A stretch of DNA of 64,000 nt from positions 1,364,001 to 1,428,000 of the forward strand of contig CP112999.1 in the NCBI GenBank assembly GCA_026625165.1. Reading direction: 5' to 3'. Positions within the stretch are counted from its first letter, which is position 1; the number at the start of each line of letters is the position of its first letter. Source of the stretch: Methanoregula sp. Its GTDB lineage: Archaea; Halobacteriota; Methanomicrobia; Methanomicrobiales; Methanospirillaceae. The notes under the pieces were generated by a model. The model was given only the letters and a program-made list of their open reading frames with translations. It ran no database searches and was not told the DNA's origin. Positions 47,694 to 64,000 of the stretch are shown in pieces. A program made the position numbers and the translations under genes.

Positions 47694-47803
47694 GCTGCGG
47701 TGGCCTAGCTGGTCAGGGCGCCAGACTCATAATGTATGTGAACGCACGATGGCGTTCTGCCTGAGAGATCTGGAGATCGTGGGATCGTAACCCACCCGCA
47801 GCA
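47694..47803 (+). tRNA. tRNA-Met (anticodon CAT) with intron
   Basis: The cloverleaf has acceptor stem GCTGCGG/CCGCAGC, D arm, anticodon arm CCAGA-CTCATAA-TCTGG and T arm. The exons are separated by a 36-nt intron at 47732-47767, at the canonical position after nucleotide 37. Splicing should need the archaeal endonuclease at a bulge-helix-bulge. CAT could also belong to a lysidine/agmatidine-type tRNA-Ile, but the layout favours elongator Met. Discriminator is A, with CCA not encoded. Confidence 0.85.
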
Positions 47804-49873: not shown

Positions 49874-49946
49874 GCCCCAGTGGCTTAGTTGGCAGAGCGG
49901 CTGACTTGTAATCAGCAGGTCCCGTGTTCAAATCACGGCTGGGGCT
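49874..49946 (+). tRNA. tRNA-Thr (anticodon TGT)
   Basis: A complete cloverleaf: acceptor GCCCCAG/CTGGGGC, anticodon arm GCTGA-CTTGTAA-TCAGC, T arm CCGTG-TTCAAAT-CACGG, discriminator T. It lies 62 bases before an integrase gene and is the probable attachment site of the accessory region to its right. Confidence 0.93.
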
Positions 49947-50008
49947 TCGGGACATTGTGTTCAATTCCCAAGCAACTCTTTTTATAGAGATCCGCCTTAC
50001 ACTGAAGC

Positions 50009-51256
50009 ATGAAAAGTGCGTCACTCCGGGCTCCATTGGCCCCGGACAACGACTTCTTTAATCTGCTCAAGGCCGACTACCAGGAGCGGTCCCTGCTGAA
50101 GGGCCTGAAAGCGGGGATCATAATACCGCGTGATGCTGAGCTGATCCGTTCCTTTACCGAAGAGATGCTCTCCTCGCGGAACCTCAGCCGGAAACGGGCC
50201 CACAAACTCACGTACACGCTGGTCGGGTGGCGGCGGTTCATCGGCCCGTTCGAAAAGAACGACATGGCCGCGATCTATTCAGGCATTGCAGCACTGAAGA
50301 ACGGCAGGAGCATCCGGGGCCGGCCGTTCAAGCAGAACACCATCTCGGACCACATCCTCATCATCAAGCAGTTCTACCTCTGGCTCATCGCCAATGAACT
50401 GGTCCCAATCCCGGAAAAGAAGATCCGCAGCCTTAAGGTCCCGGCCCACGACACCATGACCAAAGTCGCCGCCGATCTCCTCACCACCGACGAGATCACC
50501 GCTATCATCAACACCTGCACCACGAGCCGGGACCGGGCCATCGTGATGATGCTCTACGAAGGCGGATTCCGCATCGGGGAGATCGGCTTGATGAAATGGG
50601 GCGATCTCCGGTTCGATGACCATGGCATTGTGGTGAATGTGAACTTCAAGACCCGCAAGCCCCGGTACATCCGGCTGGTGATGGCCCGGGAGTTCCTGGT
50701 CAAATGGAAGAGCGATTACCCGTTCATGCCCATTGCCCCGGCAATGCCGGTCTTTGTCACGGAGCACAACACCCCGCTGACGCACGGCTCGGTGGGTATG
50801 CAGCTCAGGCACCTGGCCCAGCGGGCCGGGATAAAGAAGCATATCACCCCGCACGTCTTCCGCCACTCCCGGATCACGCACCTGATCAACGAGGGCGTCT
50901 CCGAGAGCGTGATCAAACTGATGATGTGGGGCAGCCTGACGACGAATATGTTCCAGACGTACGCCCACCTCACGGGCGGTGACATCGACCGCGAGATCCT
51001 CCGGACCTACGGGATCACAATCGACAAGGGTAAGGGTAAGGAGACCAACAAACGGCTGAAACCCCGGCAATGCCCGGATTGTTACAACATTAATTCGCCG
51101 GTGGCCAATTACTGCGAGATCTGCGGTGTGGAACTCTCGGAGGAGGCGGTTGCGACCGACTCGCAGATCACAAGTAGCGTTCTCAAATCCCCCGAGGCCC
51201 TGCAAGCGTATGTAACTAACCTGATCGACACGAAGTTTAAGGAGCGAATGGGGTAG
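50009..51256 (+). CDS. Tyrosine recombinase/integrase with C-terminal zinc ribbon
   Basis: A 415-residue site-specific recombinase. A SAM-like N-terminal core-binding domain (about 55-145) precedes the catalytic domain, with Arg188 in EGGFRIGEI, His282 and Arg285 in HVFRHSR, and the nucleophile Tyr318 in MFQTYAHL. The C terminus adds a zinc ribbon, C355-PD-C358...C369-EI-C372, probably for DNA or protein contact, as in other methanogen integrases. It lies just past tRNA-Thr, a normal target, and should integrate and excise the neighbouring element. All catalytic residues are present. Confidence 0.92.
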   Translation: MKSASLRAPLAPDNDFFNLLKADYQERSLLKGLKAGIIIPRDAELIRSFTEEMLSSRNLSRKRAHKLTYTLVGWRRFIGPFEKNDMAAIYSGIAALKNGRSIRGRPFKQNTISDHILIIKQFYLWLIANELVPIPEKKIRSLKVPAHDTMTKVAADLLTTDEITAIINTCTTSRDRAIVMMLYEGGFRIGEIGLMKWGDLRFDDHGIVVNVNFKTRKPRYIRLVMAREFLVKWKSDYPFMPIAPAMPVFVTEHNTPLTHGSVGMQLRHLAQRAGIKKHITPHVFRHSRITHLINEGVSESVIKLMMWGSLTTNMFQTYAHLTGGDIDREILRTYGITIDKGKGKETNKRLKPRQCPDCYNINSPVANYCEICGVELSEEAVATDSQITSSVLKSPEALQAYVTNLIDTKFKERMG

Positions 51257-52856: not shown

Positions 52857-53123
52857 ATGCAGCAGAGTTCTGCGCAGCGTGATGACCCCCTGCGGGTCAC
52901 ACAGGAAGCCGTCGATGCCTATGAAAAGCGCACCGGCTTCAAAGGAATTGGAAAGGTCATGGTCGAGCACGGCGTCTGGGTAATTGTTCCTAACAGGGAG
53001 GTGGCGCAAGCCTATCGGGACAATGATACGTTTACCAGGGCCCATGCCGTGGGTCCTGCTCTGCCGGGCCATGATAGTAATCGCGCCGACTCTGCTGCTG
53101 GTATCCGGGAAGGTGCGCCATGA
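52857..53123 (+). CDS. Small hypothetical protein, first of an overlapping gene chain
   Basis: An 88-residue protein with no recognised family. The central part (EAVDAYEKRTGFKGIGKVMVEHGVWVIVPN) looks like a small alpha/beta unit. GGTGA lies 8 bases ahead of the ATG. Its stop overlaps the next start (ATGA), the first of a series of overlaps that runs through eight genes to 55764, implying one transcript. Confidence 0.6.
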   Translation: MQQSSAQRDDPLRVTQEAVDAYEKRTGFKGIGKVMVEHGVWVIVPNREVAQAYRDNDTFTRAHAVGPALPGHDSNRADSAAGIREGAP

Positions 53124-53485
53124 CGCTGTTTGCTGCAGGCTCCATCATCAGCGGGAGCGAAGGCTGCGTGCACATCCGCATCATGGGCGAACCGCACTAC
53201 CTCTGCCCCGAAGAACTCGGGCGGCTCATCTTCATGGGCGACAGCGTGCCGCTCCTGCGGAACTGGCCCACAACGAATGATCCGCCGCAGGTCTCCGGCA
53301 CGGTGCACCTCAACCCGTCCGGCCGTGGTGTGATCATCGAGAGCGGGAAGCAGCGGTACCAGCTGCCCCGCGACAAGTTCATCGCGGTGGCGCTCGGTGA
53401 GGATGTGTCCTGCATCTTCTTCGAGATCCCGTCCGATGAGCGGGAACCGGAGATTATTTCGCCGGCCCGGGGAGGCACAGCATGA
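53120..53485 (+). CDS. Hypothetical protein of the overlapping chain
   Basis: A 121-residue protein without a recognised family. Predicted strands dominate (CVHIRIMGEPHYLCPEELGRL, then GRGVIIESGKQRYQLPRDKFIAVA), so a small beta barrel is possible. It overlaps both neighbours by 4 bases. It does not share the GY/EVW pattern of the five genes that follow. Confidence 0.6.
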   Translation: MTLFAAGSIISGSEGCVHIRIMGEPHYLCPEELGRLIFMGDSVPLLRNWPTTNDPPQVSGTVHLNPSGRGVIIESGKQRYQLPRDKFIAVALGEDVSCIFFEIPSDEREPEIISPARGGTA

Positions 53486-53886
53486 CTTCGAGCCCGCTCC
53501 ACACCATCTCACGGAAGGCTGCAAAGATCCTGAATCGCCGTGGCTATGACGTGGTCTGGTCGATCACACTCAGGGAGTGGGATTCGCCCGAGACGTTTGT
53601 CTGCAAACGCGGCGCTGAAGACACCCTCCACGTGAAACTGAAACTCTCGCCCAATACCCTGACAGACAGGGCGGAAATTGTGAGGTATTGCGACGACGAG
53701 ATCCGGATCCTCCGCAGGCTGATGAGAACCAATCCTAACAAAACCGGAGAGCACTACGAAGTCTGGCTCTCGATGCCTTTTGGGAAATTTTCTGCAATCG
53801 AGGTCCTGCCGGAGACACTCATCGACCTGCGATCAGGGGTCGTCCTGTCCCCCTGCCCCCCTGCGGGAGGTGCGGCATCATGGTAG
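53482..53886 (+). CDS. Tandem paralogue family, member 1
   Basis: A 134-residue member of an unrecognised family present here in five tandem copies. It has the N-terminal helix ending at Gly21-Tyr22, a strand pair (TLHVKLKLS), a middle helix and the shared YEVW (residues 92-95) followed 11 residues later by IEV (106-108). Relative to the others, its region around residue 39 (TFVCK) is divergent. It overlaps gene 2 by 7 bases and the preceding gene by 4. Confidence 0.65.
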   Translation: MTSSPLHTISRKAAKILNRRGYDVVWSITLREWDSPETFVCKRGAEDTLHVKLKLSPNTLTDRAEIVRYCDDEIRILRRLMRTNPNKTGEHYEVWLSMPFGKFSAIEVLPETLIDLRSGVVLSPCPPAGGAASW

Positions 53887-54308
53887 CCCGGTTCTGTTAC
53901 ATCCTCGAGTACGAGGCACAGGAGATGCTCCGGGCGCAGGGCTACAAGGTCCACATCCTCCAGAAGGCCCGTTCACAGAACTCCCTGCCGCTCTGTGTGG
54001 TGGCGTTCCGCGAGCCCGGCGAGACCCGGTATGTGCGGATATGCAGTGCAGGGGGGAAGATCCCAACGCCCGCTGAAATCGAAGAGCGCTGCGCAAAGGA
54101 GATAACCCTCTACCGCAAAATACAGGCCCGCTCTCCCGGGGATACCGGGCTCCACTGCGAGATCTGGTTCTATGCAGTCAGGACCGGTTTCCACTGCTAC
54201 GAGGTGCTGGCTGACAGTATCCGGAAGATCCCGACACCTGCGCCGGCCGGGACCGGCTCGCTCCATGACTGCATACGGTGCCCGGTGCTGCGGAGGGGTC
54301 TCCTGTGA
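53880..54308 (+). CDS. Tandem paralogue family, member 2
   Basis: A 142-residue copy: helix, Gly21-Tyr22, a hydrophobic strand LPLCVVAFRE, then ETRYVRICS, helix, and CEIW (93-96), YEV (107-109). Most like member 3, sharing GETRY(V/I)R and the same spacing to the EIW motif. A Cys-rich tail (DCIRCPVLRRGLL) is unique to it. It overlaps the next gene as GTGA. Confidence 0.65.
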   Translation: MVARFCYILEYEAQEMLRAQGYKVHILQKARSQNSLPLCVVAFREPGETRYVRICSAGGKIPTPAEIEERCAKEITLYRKIQARSPGDTGLHCEIWFYAVRTGFHCYEVLADSIRKIPTPAPAGTGSLHDCIRCPVLRRGLL

Positions 54309-54709
54309 CAAGCCGGCGCTGCATTGTCCTGGAGCAGGGCATCCGCGAGCAGCTCCAGCGGGCCGGCTATACGGTCGAGATCGTCCCACCCGTATTCTTA
54401 AAGAAACTCCCGCCAGCACACCTCATCGCGACGCGGGGGACTGGGGAGACCCGGTACATCCGGGTCCGGAAGATGTCGCGCACGGAGCCCACTGCTGCGA
54501 ACGTCGAGCGGTTCCTCGGCCGGGACATCACCCGGTACCGGACCTGCATGGAGAGGAGACCCGCAGTGCCCGGCCTGCACTATGAGATCTGGATCTCCAC
54601 GCTCCGGCACGGCCTCACCTGCTTCGAAGTGAGCAAAGACAGCGTGCGGGAGATCCCCCGGATCCCGCCCGCCACACCGGCGGCCGTCCCTGCAGGAGGC
54701 ACACCATGA
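54305..54709 (+). CDS. Tandem paralogue family, member 3
   Basis: A 134-residue copy, starting at GTG 54305 in the preceding stop. Helix, Gly21-Tyr22, PPAHLIATRGTGETRYIRV, helix and LHYEIWIS (EIW 94-96), then FEV (107-109). The frame extends 9 codons upstream, but the GTG aligns best with the other members' starts. Pro/Ala-rich tail. Confidence 0.65.
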   Translation: MTSRRCIVLEQGIREQLQRAGYTVEIVPPVFLKKLPPAHLIATRGTGETRYIRVRKMSRTEPTAANVERFLGRDITRYRTCMERRPAVPGLHYEIWISTLRHGLTCFEVSKDSVREIPRIPPATPAAVPAGGTP

Positions 54710-55122
54710 CCGCGATGCACCGGATGGTGATCCTGGAGCGGGAGGCCGCCTCCATCCTCCGGGAACTCGGCTACGTGCCAGGGATCGTGAGCGACCAGTT
54801 CCCCCGCTCGCGATTCGTCCCGTACAATCTGGTGGCGACAAAGAAGAACAGCGACGGGACAGAAGAATGCGTCTGGGTGAAGCTGAAAGTCTCCCTGCAC
54901 CCGGTCCGCACACCGGAAGAGGCGGCCCCGTTCTGCGGCAGCGAGAGGAATTTCTACGAGAAGAAGTTCAAGGGCATCCCTTCCAGCAACCTGCTGCGAT
55001 ACGAGGTCTGGTTCTCGGTCCCGTCCGACAAGTTCGAGACCTTTGAGATCACCCACGACGGGATACGGCTGGCCCAGCACCCGGACCGGAAGCCGCTCGA
55101 CGCTGACGGGGGCCCTGCATGA
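54706..55122 (+). CDS. Tandem paralogue family, member 4
   Basis: A 138-residue copy with Gly22-Tyr23, VPYNLVATKK, VWVKLKVS, and YEVWFS (EVW 100-102), then FEI (113-115). It carries a 6-7 residue insertion in the middle relative to members 2 and 3. Overlaps both neighbours by 4 bases. Confidence 0.65.
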   Translation: MTAMHRMVILEREAASILRELGYVPGIVSDQFPRSRFVPYNLVATKKNSDGTEECVWVKLKVSLHPVRTPEEAAPFCGSERNFYEKKFKGIPSSNLLRYEVWFSVPSDKFETFEITHDGIRLAQHPDRKPLDADGGPA

Positions 55123-55490
55123 TCGCCCAGAGCGTCTTTCACGCGGCGAAGAACCGTTGCGGGAAACTTCTAGCCTCCCGGGGCTACGAGCCGGTGGTGC
55201 CGGTCACCGACCATTTCCTCTCGCGCTACATCCCGCTCCACCTGATCGGGATGCGGGGCAACTATGAGGCCCTCTGCGTCAAGATCCGGCACGCACAGGG
55301 AGCGGTGACGGCCCAGTACGTCGAATCGTTCTGCCGGTTCGAGTGCTGCCAGCTGCGATCGCTGCTCACGATGTACCCGGGCGATATCTTCCTCCGCTGC
55401 GAGGTCTGGGTGATCTCGCCCTCCGGGGCAATCCACTGCTATGAGGTGACGGCGACCGGCGTTTCCGAGGTGGCCGCCTATGTCCGGTGA
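55119..55490 (+). CDS. Tandem paralogue family, member 5
   Basis: A 123-residue copy with Gly22-Tyr23, IPLHLIGMRG, LCVKIRHA, and CEVWVIS (EVW 95-97), then YEV (108-110). It lacks the extra tail of member 2, and its middle helix is Cys-rich (FCRFECCQLR). It overlaps the next gene by 11 bases. Confidence 0.65.
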   Translation: MIAQSVFHAAKNRCGKLLASRGYEPVVPVTDHFLSRYIPLHLIGMRGNYEALCVKIRHAQGAVTAQYVESFCRFECCQLRSLLTMYPGDIFLRCEVWVISPSGAIHCYEVTATGVSEVAAYVR

Positions 55491-55764
55491 ACCGCCAGTA
55501 CCCGGCCATCAGGAAGAGCGGATCGAAGGAGTCCCGCTCTACCTCATCCCGAAGGTGATCGCGGACCATATCCGGGAGAAGCGCGAAGCGGTCTTCCAGA
55601 TCACGGCGAGCCGGGTGCGGGAGCACCGGTACCGGATCGTGGTCGAGACCTTCGACGAGCACGCACAGCAGGCGAAGGGGATCGTGCCGGCCCCGCAGGT
55701 CCCGCAGGCACAGAAATCTGTGCAAGTGCGGCAGCAGAAGGGGGGCCGTCATGGGGCTTCATGA
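55480..55764 (+). CDS. Small hypothetical protein at the end of the chain
   Basis: A 94-residue protein of another type: a helix-strand unit with EGVPLYLIPKVIADHIREK and ASRVREHRYRIVVETFDEH, then a basic Gln-rich tail. No family recognised. It is the last gene with clear overlap before the primase. Confidence 0.55.
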   Translation: MSGEPPVPGHQEERIEGVPLYLIPKVIADHIREKREAVFQITASRVREHRYRIVVETFDEHAQQAKGIVPAPQVPQAQKSVQVRQQKGGRHGAS

Positions 55765-58914: not shown

Positions 58915-58986
58915 ATTCAAACACGGATCGTAACTCTTAACGGTTTCAGGGTCAAGACGAAACACATTACAGGGGGGTGTATTTTG

Positions 58987-60750
58987 ATGAAATCAACATT
59001 ATTCAAGGAAGTCAGTTATTCATTATCAAAATTAATTCTAGATATCGAAATGGGGGAAATCGGATTACCTGATATTCAACGTCCCTTTGTCTGGACACCA
59101 ACAAAAGTCCGTGACCTTTTCGATTCGATGTATAAGGGATTTCCAGTAGGATATCTCCTATTTTGGTCAAATTCACTGGCTGATGGGTCTCGGCAAATCG
59201 GAACCGACACAAAACAAAAAGTACCGAAATTGCTGATTGTTGACGGGCAACAGCGATTAACATCGCTTTATTCCGTATTGAAAGGCAAGCCAGTGATGAC
59301 ACAGGACTTCAAACCCCTATCAATTAATATTGCATTCCGGCCCCGGGATGAATATTTTGAAGTTACCGATGCCGCGATTAGAAAAAATCCCGAATTTATT
59401 CCTGATATTTCTCAACTCTGGTCAAAAGAGATTCTATGGACCCGTTTTGTGAAAGATTTTATTTCCAGATTAAAAGAACATCACGAGTTATCTGAGAAAG
59501 AAGAAGATGAGATAATAGAAAAAATCGATGCCCTCCGCGACCTCCAGAATTACCCCTTTACTGCAATGGAATTATCATATAACGTTGATGAGGAACAAGT
59601 TGCTGATATCTTCGTAAGAATAAATAGCAAAGGAGTCATCCTCAACCAAGCCGATTTCATTTTAACCCTCATGTCTGTCTTTTGGGATCAGGGCCGGGCA
59701 GACCTCGAAAAGTTCTGTCGGGCTTCACGTCAACCTACAACAAACACATCATCATCCTTCAATTATTTTATCGAACCTGCACCAGATCAGTTATTACGGG
59801 TCGCAGTTGGTCTTGGCTTTAAACGGGCGCGCCTCCAGCATGTATATTCACTACTGAGAGGTAAAGATCTCGATACCGGTCAATTCTCAGATGAACGCCG
59901 GGTCTCCCAGTTTGCAGTCCTCAAAAATTCACAGGAAATTGTCCTGAACCTACAGAACTGGCATGAATTTTTGAAAGCCCTCATGCGGGCGGGGTACAGA
60001 AGTAAAGTCATGATCACATCAGAGATGGCTGTAATCTACGCATATACGATGTTCTTGATCGGAAAAACAGATTATAAGGTTGAACCGTTTGAACTCCGAA
60101 ACTGTATCGCCCGTTGGTTCTTTATGACATCACTAACCGGGCGCTATACAACATCTCCAGAAGGTGCCATGGAAGCCGACCTTGCCCGGTTACGGAATGT
60201 GAAGGATGGAGTAGGATTTTATGCGGTATTGAACCAGATTATCAACGATACATTAACCGAAGATTACTGGAATATTACACTGCCCAATGATCTTGCCACA
60301 TCATCGGCACGGAGCCCGTCGCTGTTTGCCTATTATGCCGCACTCAACTTGTTAGATGCAAAAGTTCTCTTTTCGAAGATGAAAGTGCCCGAGCTCCTTG
60401 ACCCGGCGATAAAAGCGAAAAAATCATCGACAGAACGACATCATCTCTTCCCAAAGAACTATTTGAAAACGCTTGGAATTAAGGATACAAAAGAGATCAA
60501 CCAGATCGCAAATTTCGCGCTTGTTGAATGGCTTGATAATATTGGTATCATGGATGATGCACCATCAACTTATCTCCCAAAATATCTTGGAAGATTTTCT
60601 GAACCTGAAATTACTTCGATGTATTACTGGCATGCTTTACCGAAAAACTGGGAAACCCTTGATTACTCAACATTCCTTGACCAACGGAGGAAAATGATGG
60701 CAAATGTGATCCGGGCTGGATTTACGGAACTAAGTAAGGGGAATGAGTAA
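58987..60750 (+). CDS. DUF262 + HNH-like protein (GmrSD type)
   Basis: A 587-residue protein with an N-terminal DUF262 domain (DIQRPFVW 29-36; VDGQQRLTSLYS from residue 85). Its ParB/sulfiredoxin-like DGQQR motif senses or binds modified DNA with nucleotide. A C-terminal DUF1524-like HNH region has HHLFP at 485-489, then a helix with INQIANFALV. The layout is that of GmrSD-type Type IV restriction enzymes. These cut modified phage DNA. Start ATG 58987 (a TTG three bases upstream is in frame). AT-richer than its neighbours, so probably acquired separately. Confidence 0.85.
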   Translation: MKSTLFKEVSYSLSKLILDIEMGEIGLPDIQRPFVWTPTKVRDLFDSMYKGFPVGYLLFWSNSLADGSRQIGTDTKQKVPKLLIVDGQQRLTSLYSVLKGKPVMTQDFKPLSINIAFRPRDEYFEVTDAAIRKNPEFIPDISQLWSKEILWTRFVKDFISRLKEHHELSEKEEDEIIEKIDALRDLQNYPFTAMELSYNVDEEQVADIFVRINSKGVILNQADFILTLMSVFWDQGRADLEKFCRASRQPTTNTSSSFNYFIEPAPDQLLRVAVGLGFKRARLQHVYSLLRGKDLDTGQFSDERRVSQFAVLKNSQEIVLNLQNWHEFLKALMRAGYRSKVMITSEMAVIYAYTMFLIGKTDYKVEPFELRNCIARWFFMTSLTGRYTTSPEGAMEADLARLRNVKDGVGFYAVLNQIINDTLTEDYWNITLPNDLATSSARSPSLFAYYAALNLLDAKVLFSKMKVPELLDPAIKAKKSSTERHHLFPKNYLKTLGIKDTKEINQIANFALVEWLDNIGIMDDAPSTYLPKYLGRFSEPEITSMYYWHALPKNWETLDYSTFLDQRRKMMANVIRAGFTELSKGNE

Positions 60751-60864: not shown

Positions 60865-61374
60865 GTGACCGTGCCCCCTGCCCTACTCTCCCATGCCAGC
60901 ACCGAGCACTACACCCCGCAGTATATCCTCGATGCCGTCATCGCGTGCATGGGCGCGATCGACCTCGACCCGTGCAGCAACAGCCACGAGATCCCGAACG
61001 TGCCCGCAGCGAGGCACTACACAATCCAGGACAACGGACTCATCCAACCGTGGGAGGGGCGGGTCTTCATCAATCCTCCTTTCGGGCCCGGGGTCGAGGT
61101 GTGGTTTTCGAAGCTATATCAGGAGCGGTTTGCGGGCCGGACTACAGAGGCGATCGTGCTCTGGAAATCGGCGACCGAGACTGCTGCATGGAAGACGCTG
61201 ACGGTATTGTCGTGCCGGGTGTGTTTTCCATCGGCGAGAATACGGTTCATGGGGCCTGGGGATTCAAGCGGGTCCACGTTCTCGCCGGCGCTGTTCTATG
61301 TTGGGGAAGGGCCAAGGAGATTCGAGAAAGCGTTTGCTGGGATGGGGCCGGTGTGGGTGGTACCGGGGAAATGA
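60865..61374 (+). CDS. Phage-type DNA N6-adenine methyltransferase
   Basis: A 169-residue Dam-like enzyme of the phage/plasmid MT-A70-like group: start EHYTPQYILDAVIACMG, DLDPCSN (35-39), and the catalytic NPPFG (70-74). It transfers a methyl group to adenine in DNA. Start is GTG 60865. There is no cognate nuclease beside it, so it is an orphan that might mask the element's own DNA. It is GC-rich, between two AT-rich genes. Confidence 0.82.
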   Translation: MTVPPALLSHASTEHYTPQYILDAVIACMGAIDLDPCSNSHEIPNVPAARHYTIQDNGLIQPWEGRVFINPPFGPGVEVWFSKLYQERFAGRTTEAIVLWKSATETAAWKTLTVLSCRVCFPSARIRFMGPGDSSGSTFSPALFYVGEGPRRFEKAFAGMGPVWVVPGK

Positions 61375-61459: not shown

Positions 61460-64000
61460 ATGACTGGAAAAGAAAAAATTTATCCAAATCCTCCCATTCC
61501 TCCACAACTTATTGAAGCAATTAATAACAATCAATTTGCGATTTTTTTCGGTGCTGGAACATCCATGATGATTGGATGTAGCAGTTGGGAGAGAATGGCG
61601 GAAAAGCTCATCGAACGGTGTTTCACCACTCCAAAAAAAGATGATTCTCGATCTACCTGTATAACTTATAAAGAGCAAGAAGCTCTTTTGAAGATGAAAG
61701 ATCCTAAAAAAATAATCACAATCTGCCAATATATCCTTCATAAAAATGGTTCTGAAAAGGAATTTTTTAACCAAATTCAGGATTGTCTAATACCAAACCA
61801 AGATCTTCTCGACAAACAAAATATCTATAACGAATTGGATGGTCTTCGAGGATTATTTATCACAACGAATATTGATGCCCATTTCGATAAAAAATTTCAT
61901 CCATCAAGAATTCTGATTCATAAAGAAGATTTTGATCCGAGTACACTCGATGAATCCAAGCTCTATCATATTCATGGTTCGATTTCTGATTGGTCGACCG
62001 TTGTTATAACGGTTAAAGATTATTTTGAACGCTATAATGATGAAAAATTCAAGATATTTTTACAAAAAATCTTTGACGAGAAAACCATTTTATTCATAGG
62101 ATATGGCCTGAATGAATTTGAAGTATTAGACTTTTTAATCACAAAATCAGGAATCCCCGTCTCGAAAGAACCCAAACATTTCATTTTACTTCCGTATTAT
62201 AGAGGTGAAGATAACATTCTCGAATTCGAGGAACAATATTTTCGACAAATGGGGATTTCGGTCATACCCTACATGAAAGATGAAAAAGGATATGGCCAAT
62301 TGTTTGATGTGATAAAAAAATGGAACCAGGAAATTATTCTTCAATCCAGATTTTTACACGCTACTCATGAGGAATTAAAAAATGCAGCAAATAATTACAC
62401 GCCCTCAGTTGAAGGAAAAATATTTCAGTTGATAACCAATGATAAGACTCTTGAATTTGAATTTTTTAGACAACTGTCCAAGACAGAAAATCCGTTTCCT
62501 TGGGTTATACCACTGAAAAATTCCGGCTATTTTAATCCCAAAAACAATCCTTCCACAACTGAAGGTTTTGGATCCTATTGGATTATTATGGCGGTTCTGG
62601 AAAATGTCGCGAAATTGAATAGTGAAAAACCTTCAGAAGAAATCACTGGAGAGATCATTCAAATTATCGACTCAATAATTGAATATCGTGATGAAAACAA
62701 CAATCGTATTGAAAATATATTTACAGATCGCCATGTGGTTCGAATCATTTTTTTACTTCCGTTCGATTCAATCAATGCGAATCATTTAGATTTCATAAAC
62801 ACTTGCCTGCACTCATACCACGACCGGATTCTTATTGCGGGAGAAATTGGAGACACAATTATTCCCCGCCTTCTCGCACATAATAATAAAAGTCTCTTAC
62901 TCAAAATTCTGGAAATTTTATTAGATTTTGAAAAGAGTAAAAAACCTACTTTCGAGAAGTATCCCTCTGTACTGGGTGAATATTACCTTCAGGTCGTGAT
63001 GGAAAAATATACTATAAAGATCCTCACGACTTGTGGGATTGAATGTATCGATGTAGCAATAAGAAAAATCGAATCCGTTGTGCGAGAAGATCCTTCGCAA
63101 TTCCATGAAGTATGGCTACCCTCAATAACCGAAAAAAGCGACGTAAAGGAACGATATGACACTCAAATAATTCATTTCATATGGATTGGTTTCAAACTTT
63201 TAGGTCCAACACAGATCAGAGACCATGTATCAGAATTATTGAAGAAAGAACACTCAATTTTCAAACGATTAGCAATTAGTGCTATCAATGAATATTACCC
63301 CGAACTCAATGATCTTTTCTGGAGTATTGAACATAACCCTCTAAATGAATTTCATGTTAAGCATGAATTGTACGAATTACTGAAACAACATTGTAACAAA
63401 TTCTCGGATCAACAAATTAAGAAAGTGATTGAGTGGATTGAAACTCAAACATATCATGAAGATAAAATATCTGATGATCCACTCGTTCAGGGAAAATATC
63501 TTGCATATCACAAAAAAGAATGGCTTTCTGCATTACTACCAAAAGGTGATCCACAGGTCGAAGATCTTTTTGCAAAATATCAATCAATCAATCCAGCGGA
63601 ACTTAAACACCCAGGACGAAGTTTTGTTATTGAACATTTTTCAGGACTTCCAAGTCCGATCCCCAAGGAAGATCTCCTCAATAAAACTAACGTAGAAATC
63701 GTTCAGTATCTCAACAATTTTCAAGGTGACGAATATGGCCCAGAAATTTCAAGGCATTCTCTTTGTGATATTTTTCGGGTATGCATCATAGAAAATCCCC
63801 AAAAATTTTTACAAGATTTAGATCCCTTCCTGAATCTCAATAGGCTGTATCAATATGAATTGCTCATTGGATTGTCAGAAGCATGGCGAAAAGAGAATAA
63901 TTTCAAATGGGCGGGAATTTTTAAATTTATTAATTCTATTCTTGAATCTGAAGAATTTTGGACGGAAGTCTACAATGAAGGTGAATCAAATTACAGAAAT
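61460..64000 (+). CDS. SIR2-domain defence-like protein (3' partial)
   Basis: The frame is open from ATG 61460 to the window edge, exactly 847 codons, with no stop. The N-terminal SIR2-like domain (about residues 15-290) has FFGAGTS (29-35), the catalytic TTNID (135-139), IHGS (171-174) and FIGYGLNE (212-219). These are the NAD-binding and hydrolysis features of antiphage SIR2 NADases. The remaining 550 residues are helical repeats with no membrane segment, perhaps a sensor scaffold. It is AT-rich. It may resemble DSR-type systems, but the missing C terminus prevents assignment. Confidence 0.85.
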   Translation, partial: MTGKEKIYPNPPIPPQLIEAINNNQFAIFFGAGTSMMIGCSSWERMAEKLIERCFTTPKKDDSRSTCITYKEQEALLKMKDPKKIITICQYILHKNGSEKEFFNQIQDCLIPNQDLLDKQNIYNELDGLRGLFITTNIDAHFDKKFHPSRILIHKEDFDPSTLDESKLYHIHGSISDWSTVVITVKDYFERYNDEKFKIFLQKIFDEKTILFIGYGLNEFEVLDFLITKSGIPVSKEPKHFILLPYYRGEDNILEFEEQYFRQMGISVIPYMKDEKGYGQLFDVIKKWNQEIILQSRFLHATHEELKNAANNYTPSVEGKIFQLITNDKTLEFEFFRQLSKTENPFPWVIPLKNSGYFNPKNNPSTTEGFGSYWIIMAVLENVAKLNSEKPSEEITGEIIQIIDSIIEYRDENNNRIENIFTDRHVVRIIFLLPFDSINANHLDFINTCLHSYHDRILIAGEIGDTIIPRLLAHNNKSLLLKILEILLDFEKSKKPTFEKYPSVLGEYYLQVVMEKYTIKILTTCGIECIDVAIRKIESVVREDPSQFHEVWLPSITEKSDVKERYDTQIIHFIWIGFKLLGPTQIRDHVSELLKKEHSIFKRLAISAINEYYPELNDLFWSIEHNPLNEFHVKHELYELLKQHCNKFSDQQIKKVIEWIETQTYHEDKISDDPLVQGKYLAYHKKEWLSALLPKGDPQVEDLFAKYQSINPAELKHPGRSFVIEHFSGLPSPIPKEDLLNKTNVEIVQYLNNFQGDEYGPEISRHSLCDIFRVCIIENPQKFLQDLDPFLNLNRLYQYELLIGLSEAWRKENNFKWAGIFKFINSILESEEFWTEVYNEGESNYRN

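Follow-up and report, generated by a model that had tools for sequence, protein, structure and literature searches.

The five small genes lying in tandem just upstream of the replication initiator gene in an integrated element of Methanoregula sp. encode, very probably, proteins that are related to Hjc, the Holliday junction resolvase of archaea, and have lost catalysis. We give a little less than an even chance to the complete account, namely, that these dead Hjc relatives were amplified and now serve the initiator as DNA-structure-binding subunits, a function that we infer. The window analyzed here is a stretch of 64,000 nucleotides (contig CP112999.1, positions 1,364,001 to 1,428,000) from a contig of 2.17 Mb, and its features are listed in Table 1.

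Table 1. Integration site, replication module and cargo genes of the element (window coordinates unless a locus is named)
Feature	Position	Strand	Evidence or remark
tRNA-Thr(TGT), integration target	49874..49946	+	ARAGORN, Rfam
attL core, 3' end of tRNA-Thr	49929-49947		19 bp, CAAATCACGGCTGGGGCTT
Tyrosine integrase	50009..51256	+	Pfam Phage_integrase, 3e-26
p0, conserved first gene of replication module	53120..53485	+	Homologues immediately precede the array in at least 20 elements
Array copy 1 (class A), putative inactive Hjc-like protein, 134 aa	53482..53886	+	T in place of D33, K in place of E46
Array copy 2 (class B), putative inactive Hjc-like protein, 142 aa; modeled copy	53880..54308	+	C in place of D33, R in place of E46
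Array copy 3 (class C), 134 aa from likely GTG start	54305..54709	+	H in place of D33, R in place of E46
Array copy 4 (class D), 138 aa	54706..55122	+	N in place of D33, K in place of E46
Array copy 5 (class E), 123 aa	55119..55490	+	H in place of D33, K in place of E46
p6, small basic partner gene	55480..55764	+	Conserved neighbor, immediately downstream of arrays
Primase/helicase replication initiator, 1034 aa	55810..58914	+	Weak AAA and HTH Pfam matches
Cargo GmrSD_N protein (PADLOC HEC-05)	58984..60750	+	Pfam, 1.6e-33; PADLOC, 1.1e-34
Dam-type adenine methyltransferase	60865..61374	+	Pfam Dam, 1.3e-8; homologues recur in related elements
Cargo Dsr1-type SIR2 defense protein	61460..64000, past window end into L170	+	PADLOC Dsr1, 6e-292; Pfam SIR2_2, 9.8e-22
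Cargo Eco29kI-like restriction enzyme and methyltransferase	L170 1695-3704		

The array genes (53482-55490) are consecutive, all on the + strand, and overlap by a few bases. Every pair of their products was similar in a seven-protein BLASTP comparison (E values of 1e-7 to 2e-25), and profiles built from four copies scored the fifth at 61 to 98 bits, far above the best score of about 11 bits obtained with 2,000 shuffles per protein. Together, these results put it beyond doubt that the five proteins are, at the level of sequence, true paralogues. The copies have in common a G-Y near residue 22, a P-x-x-L-V-A stretch, a basic strand, and the motifs [YC]-E-[VI]-W and E-[VI], and nine columns of their alignment are invariant. 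Five tandem paralogues with a shared motif layout had been proposed in the initial annotation, and both points were borne out. It had also listed overlapping genes of 123 to 142 residues; the overlaps are real, but copy 3, whose longest open reading frame starts at 54278 (143 aa), probably begins at GTG 54305, since this codon forms a GTGA overlap with the stop of copy 2, and a protein begun there has 134 aa, as class C proteins elsewhere usually do. The flanking genes p0 and p6 were considered as divergent copies and ruled out, as profile comparison does not place them in the family. No convincing match for the five copies was obtained in Pfam, PHROGs, NCBIfam or PADLOC. Among PDB sequences, the family profile hit prion proteins, a short local likeness, and DARPins, through a short "PLHLVAxRG"-like stretch; in both cases the fold match is a different one, and these hits were rejected.

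The kinship with Hjc is seen in the predicted fold of one copy and in a bridge of sequence similarity. An AlphaFold2 model, made for copy 2 from 62 family rows (pLDDT, 79.8), has a confident helix-strand-strand-strand-helix-strand core (H2-19, E23-27, E39-44, E48-56, H64-84 and E91-99), which is the alpha-beta-beta-beta-alpha-beta core of the PD-(D/E)XK fold. Its best structural match is the Hjc structure 1gef (Z, 11.3; 104 residues aligned with an rmsd of 2.6), and six Hjc structures rank first in the VIA-align comparison (Z, 11.3 to 9.7); SPARDA nuclease subunits, VRR_NUC, RecU, TSEN and the XisH-family structures 2inb and 2okf are also among the fold matches. Foldseek E values for the same model are modest (4.6e-3 and weaker). 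The array proteins have no match to Hjc (PF01870) in Pfam. The bridge is provided by relatives that occur as single copies beside initiator homologues: these match 1gef at 2e-4 in a single-sequence search and at 5.8e-7 in a profile search, which also finds other Hjc chains, and they pass the Pfam cutoff for PF01870 (24.1 bits for L158, with a cutoff of 21.1). The array profile matches these single-copy relatives with 99.6% probability (E value, 6e-24). Most of the loci L150 to L165, also retrieved with PF01870, hold another resolvase-like protein of Methanomicrobiales, which was set aside. A PD-(D/E)XK core without its catalytic residues had been put forward as speculation, with structure prediction as a check; the copy 2 fold, the sequence bridge to Hjc and the residue mapping described below all agree with it.

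Ninety-four array proteins from about 38 loci were mapped onto the numbering of 1gef, in which E9, D33, E46 and K48 are what we take to be the Hjc active-site residues. D33 is replaced in all 94 proteins, by His in 66 and by Asn in 14, and E46 is likewise lost throughout, with Lys or Arg in 89; at neither position is an Asp or Glu found in any of them. E9 is kept in 54 of the 94, and the K48 position is occupied by Lys in 28 and by Arg in 54. The metal-binding acids of the PD and (D/E)xK motifs that mark an active nuclease of this superfamily are therefore missing, and the Hjc catalytic set E9, D33, E46 and K48 is not preserved. It is conceivable that the array proteins are still nucleases with an altered active site that uses other conserved residues, such as the Glu of the E-[VI]-W motif, which is 99% conserved, or the His that is so frequent at the D33 position, and some Cys residues are well conserved, too. 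With both metal-ligand acids of the superfamily gone and E46 turned into a basic residue in nearly all proteins, we regard this as quite unlikely. In the family alignment, strongly conserved Cys residues occur in class C and class E proteins together with the His that has taken the place of D33, and these residues might form a metal or disulfide site. Turning to the single-copy relatives, 5 of the 28 that lie beside an initiator retain D33 with Q-x-K, and an acid at the E46 position occurs in 0 of 50. Since the single-copy relatives already lack the E46 acid and a few still have D33, the loss of catalysis seems, from these sequences, to have begun before the amplification and to have become complete in the arrays.

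Relatives were found in 66 of 108 genomes of the same taxonomic family, and those with a name in the genome contig search are mostly Methanoregula. About 38 array-type loci could be read, several of which end at contig borders. The number of members varies between 1 and 5 across related elements, a variation whose presence had been raised as a point to check. In a tree, array members fall into classes that form clades, and the commonest combinations are C-E (11 loci) and C-D-E (6 loci), while the full A-B-C-D-E array is present in two loci. Class A comes first, followed by B or C, then D, and then E or F, and E is the last gene wherever it is present; B and C are swapped in two loci, and in one locus (L060) an F copy lies about 6 kb away from a C-D pair. 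The paralogue classes are thus, judged from these alignments, old, and their order is nearly fixed. When single-copy relatives were added to the tree, all array members formed one clade (support, 96/95), which indicates a single amplification event in the sampled set. The same chromosome carries, at about 80, 694, 1279 and 1730 kb, distant single family members of an "MTRGRP..." type with no initiator nearby (L146 to L149); a p6 relative lies directly upstream of the one at L147, and three family copies with a spacing of 1.3 to 1.9 kb are seen at L148. As some chromosomal members do not lie beside a primase, the family fold has uses without one, which counts against the reading favored below.

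The element that carries the array is inserted in tRNA-Thr and covers about 30.1 kb between 19-bp repeats, the second, exact copy of CAAATCACGGCTGGGGCTT lying past the window end, in L170, at 80049-80067 if the window numbering is continued. Related loci carry tRNA-Thr, tRNA-Leu or tRNA-Gly genes, several of them beside an integrase. A further, 110-base tRNA at 47694-47803, found by Rfam and missed by ARAGORN with bacterial settings, probably contains an intron. An association of the array with a primase/ATPase had been noted from the window, and it extends well beyond it: the order p0, array, p6, initiator recurs in array elements with enough flanking sequence, and in 28 of 50 cases a single-copy relative is followed directly by an initiator homologue; one single-copy relative that has an initiator homologue is located at 2.154 Mb of a 2,922,917-bp genome. 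In its helicase part, residues 375 to 722 of the initiator match a putative Rep protein of small methanogen plasmids, and residues 5 to 331 show a 47.5% match to a Methanomethylovorans plasmid protein; matches of the initiator in phage and plasmid records are partial only, and scans of IMG/VR gave no relative of it or of class E. No Pfam or PHROG match was found for p0, and the model of p6 (beta-alpha-beta-beta core; pLDDT, 73.5) is closest to unrelated proteins (best Z, 5.8).

When the array was compared with its syntenic counterpart in Methanoregula sp. PtaU1.Bin051 (L040), also of five genes, dN/dS was 0.10 to 0.22 for the array genes and 0.15 for the initiator. The array is under purifying selection. 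Silent divergence of copy 1 from its orthologue (dS, 1.46) is much above that of its neighbors (0.26 to 0.61), which suggests that this copy was replaced within the array in one lineage. The view that the duplications are old or fast evolving is therefore supported in its first part, given the class clades, and not in its second. The same data bear on the idea, also present in the initial annotation, that the proteins are diversified decoys or inhibitors directed against nucleases of the host or of rival defense systems. Such a role would suit an element with defense cargo (GmrSD, Dsr1 and an Eco29kI-type restriction system) and an array of variable length, but in addition to the low dN/dS values and the nearly fixed class order, tight linkage ties the array to the initiator and not to the cargo, which varies, and four of its five proteins are basic, which makes DNA mimicry unlikely. 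We therefore consider decoys very improbable.

Distances between array proteins also correlate with those between initiators (r of 0.73 for class C, 0.76 for D, 0.49 for E and 0.81 for p6) and hardly with those between integrases (r of 0.17 for C, 0.07 for E and 0.12 for p6, in comparisons of 5 to 13 loci that include unrelated integrases); for class D the correlation with the integrase has an r of 0.93, from five loci only. This is relevant to the proposal that the proteins are accessory to recombination or excision, binding att sites and steering the integrase in the manner of XisH, as could be imagined for elements that use tRNA genes as integration sites and have an att repeat, and for a fold that also matches XisH-family structures. 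The array adjoins the primase and not the integrase, and it is with the primase and p6 that the divergence of classes C and E keeps pace. While co-divergence with the initiator alone could be explained by linkage in one operon, the case against an excision role rests on the contrast between array and integrase, the latter itself being exchanged among elements, and we judge this role to be rather unlikely. Slightly less so, but still unlikely, are DNA-binding pseudonucleases that regulate transcription or copy number by repressing or activating the initiator gene: the absence of catalytic residues, the mostly basic proteins and the overlapping-gene operon with the initiator would all fit, but the copy 2 model contains no helix-turn-helix or other regulator fold, and as many as five ordered classes would be superfluous for a single regulator.

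Our favored reading remains a service to the initiator. In this model, a single resolvase-like gene would have stood beside the initiator of a family of integrative elements, and in the Methanoregula lineage it would have been amplified once and split into position-specific classes. The proteins, probably homo- or heterodimers like Hjc, would bind branched or bent DNA at the origin of the element or at its forks and might, in partnership with p6, help to position or load the primase/helicase initiator, and different combinations of classes would tune the initiator complex. Binding to DNA structures is suggested here by the Rep-like initiator, by the known type of element that joins a prim-pol gene to an HJR gene, and by the precedent of RecC. 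That each class keeps its place in the row beside the gene that starts replication suggests specialized DNA-binding parts and not throw-away duplicates. A bolder version, in which classes A to E form one hetero-oligomeric, noncatalytic DNA clamp or origin complex of dead resolvase folds, encoded in order and loading the primase/helicase, is improbable at present; if true, it would represent a type of replication loader not described before.

Elements of this type, and the Hjc-like gene in them, are already known. In the available text of their study, Makarova et al. 2014 (PMC4158269) describe arCOG07809 elements with an integrase and a prim-pol/helicase/HTH/Zn finger protein, with Methanosphaerula palustris as an example species, propose that they are satellite viruses, and note that an arCOG09441 "HJR family endonuclease" (PD-DEXK) adjoins the prim-pol gene. 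The element studied here likewise has an integrase, a prim-pol/helicase initiator, an adjacent HJR-type gene and an integration site. The label of an unrecognized family given in the initial annotation thus needs to be qualified, as the primase-linked gene had already been annotated and the single-copy relatives exceed the Pfam Hjc cutoff, with arCOG membership of the array genes being deduced from the description. In that text arCOG09441 proteins appear as endonucleases, whereas the array consists of two to five ordered paralogues without the catalytic acids, and the two are connected by description only. In the open-access literature searched, we found no description of an ordered multiclass array or of its complete catalytic loss.

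Hjc itself (PF01870; 1gef, 2wcw and 1hh1) has the fold and strand order of copy 2 and is tied to the array in sequence through the single-copy relatives, but it is encoded by one gene and not by a tandem array, has D33 and E46, and acts as a dimer that binds and cuts four-way junctions. XisH, the cyanobacterial fdxN element excision controlling factor (2inb and 2okf), likewise combines a PD-(D/E)XK-like fold with a mobile element; it is a weaker structural match than Hjc and is linked to excision, whereas the array goes with replication. RecC (PMC1185551) provides a precedent for a PD-(D/E)XK fold that has lost catalysis and handles or guides DNA in a repair machine, although its dead domain belongs to a large helicase-nuclease subunit and the array proteins are small and free-standing. 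The array shows that, inside a replication module, a nuclease fold has given rise to an ordered family whose members apparently do not cut. With no E46 acid in the single-copy relatives, the view taken of the "HJR endonuclease" known from these elements is revised as well, and because these relatives keep different parts of the catalytic set, the step from an enzyme to a DNA-binding scaffold becomes testable in one gene family.
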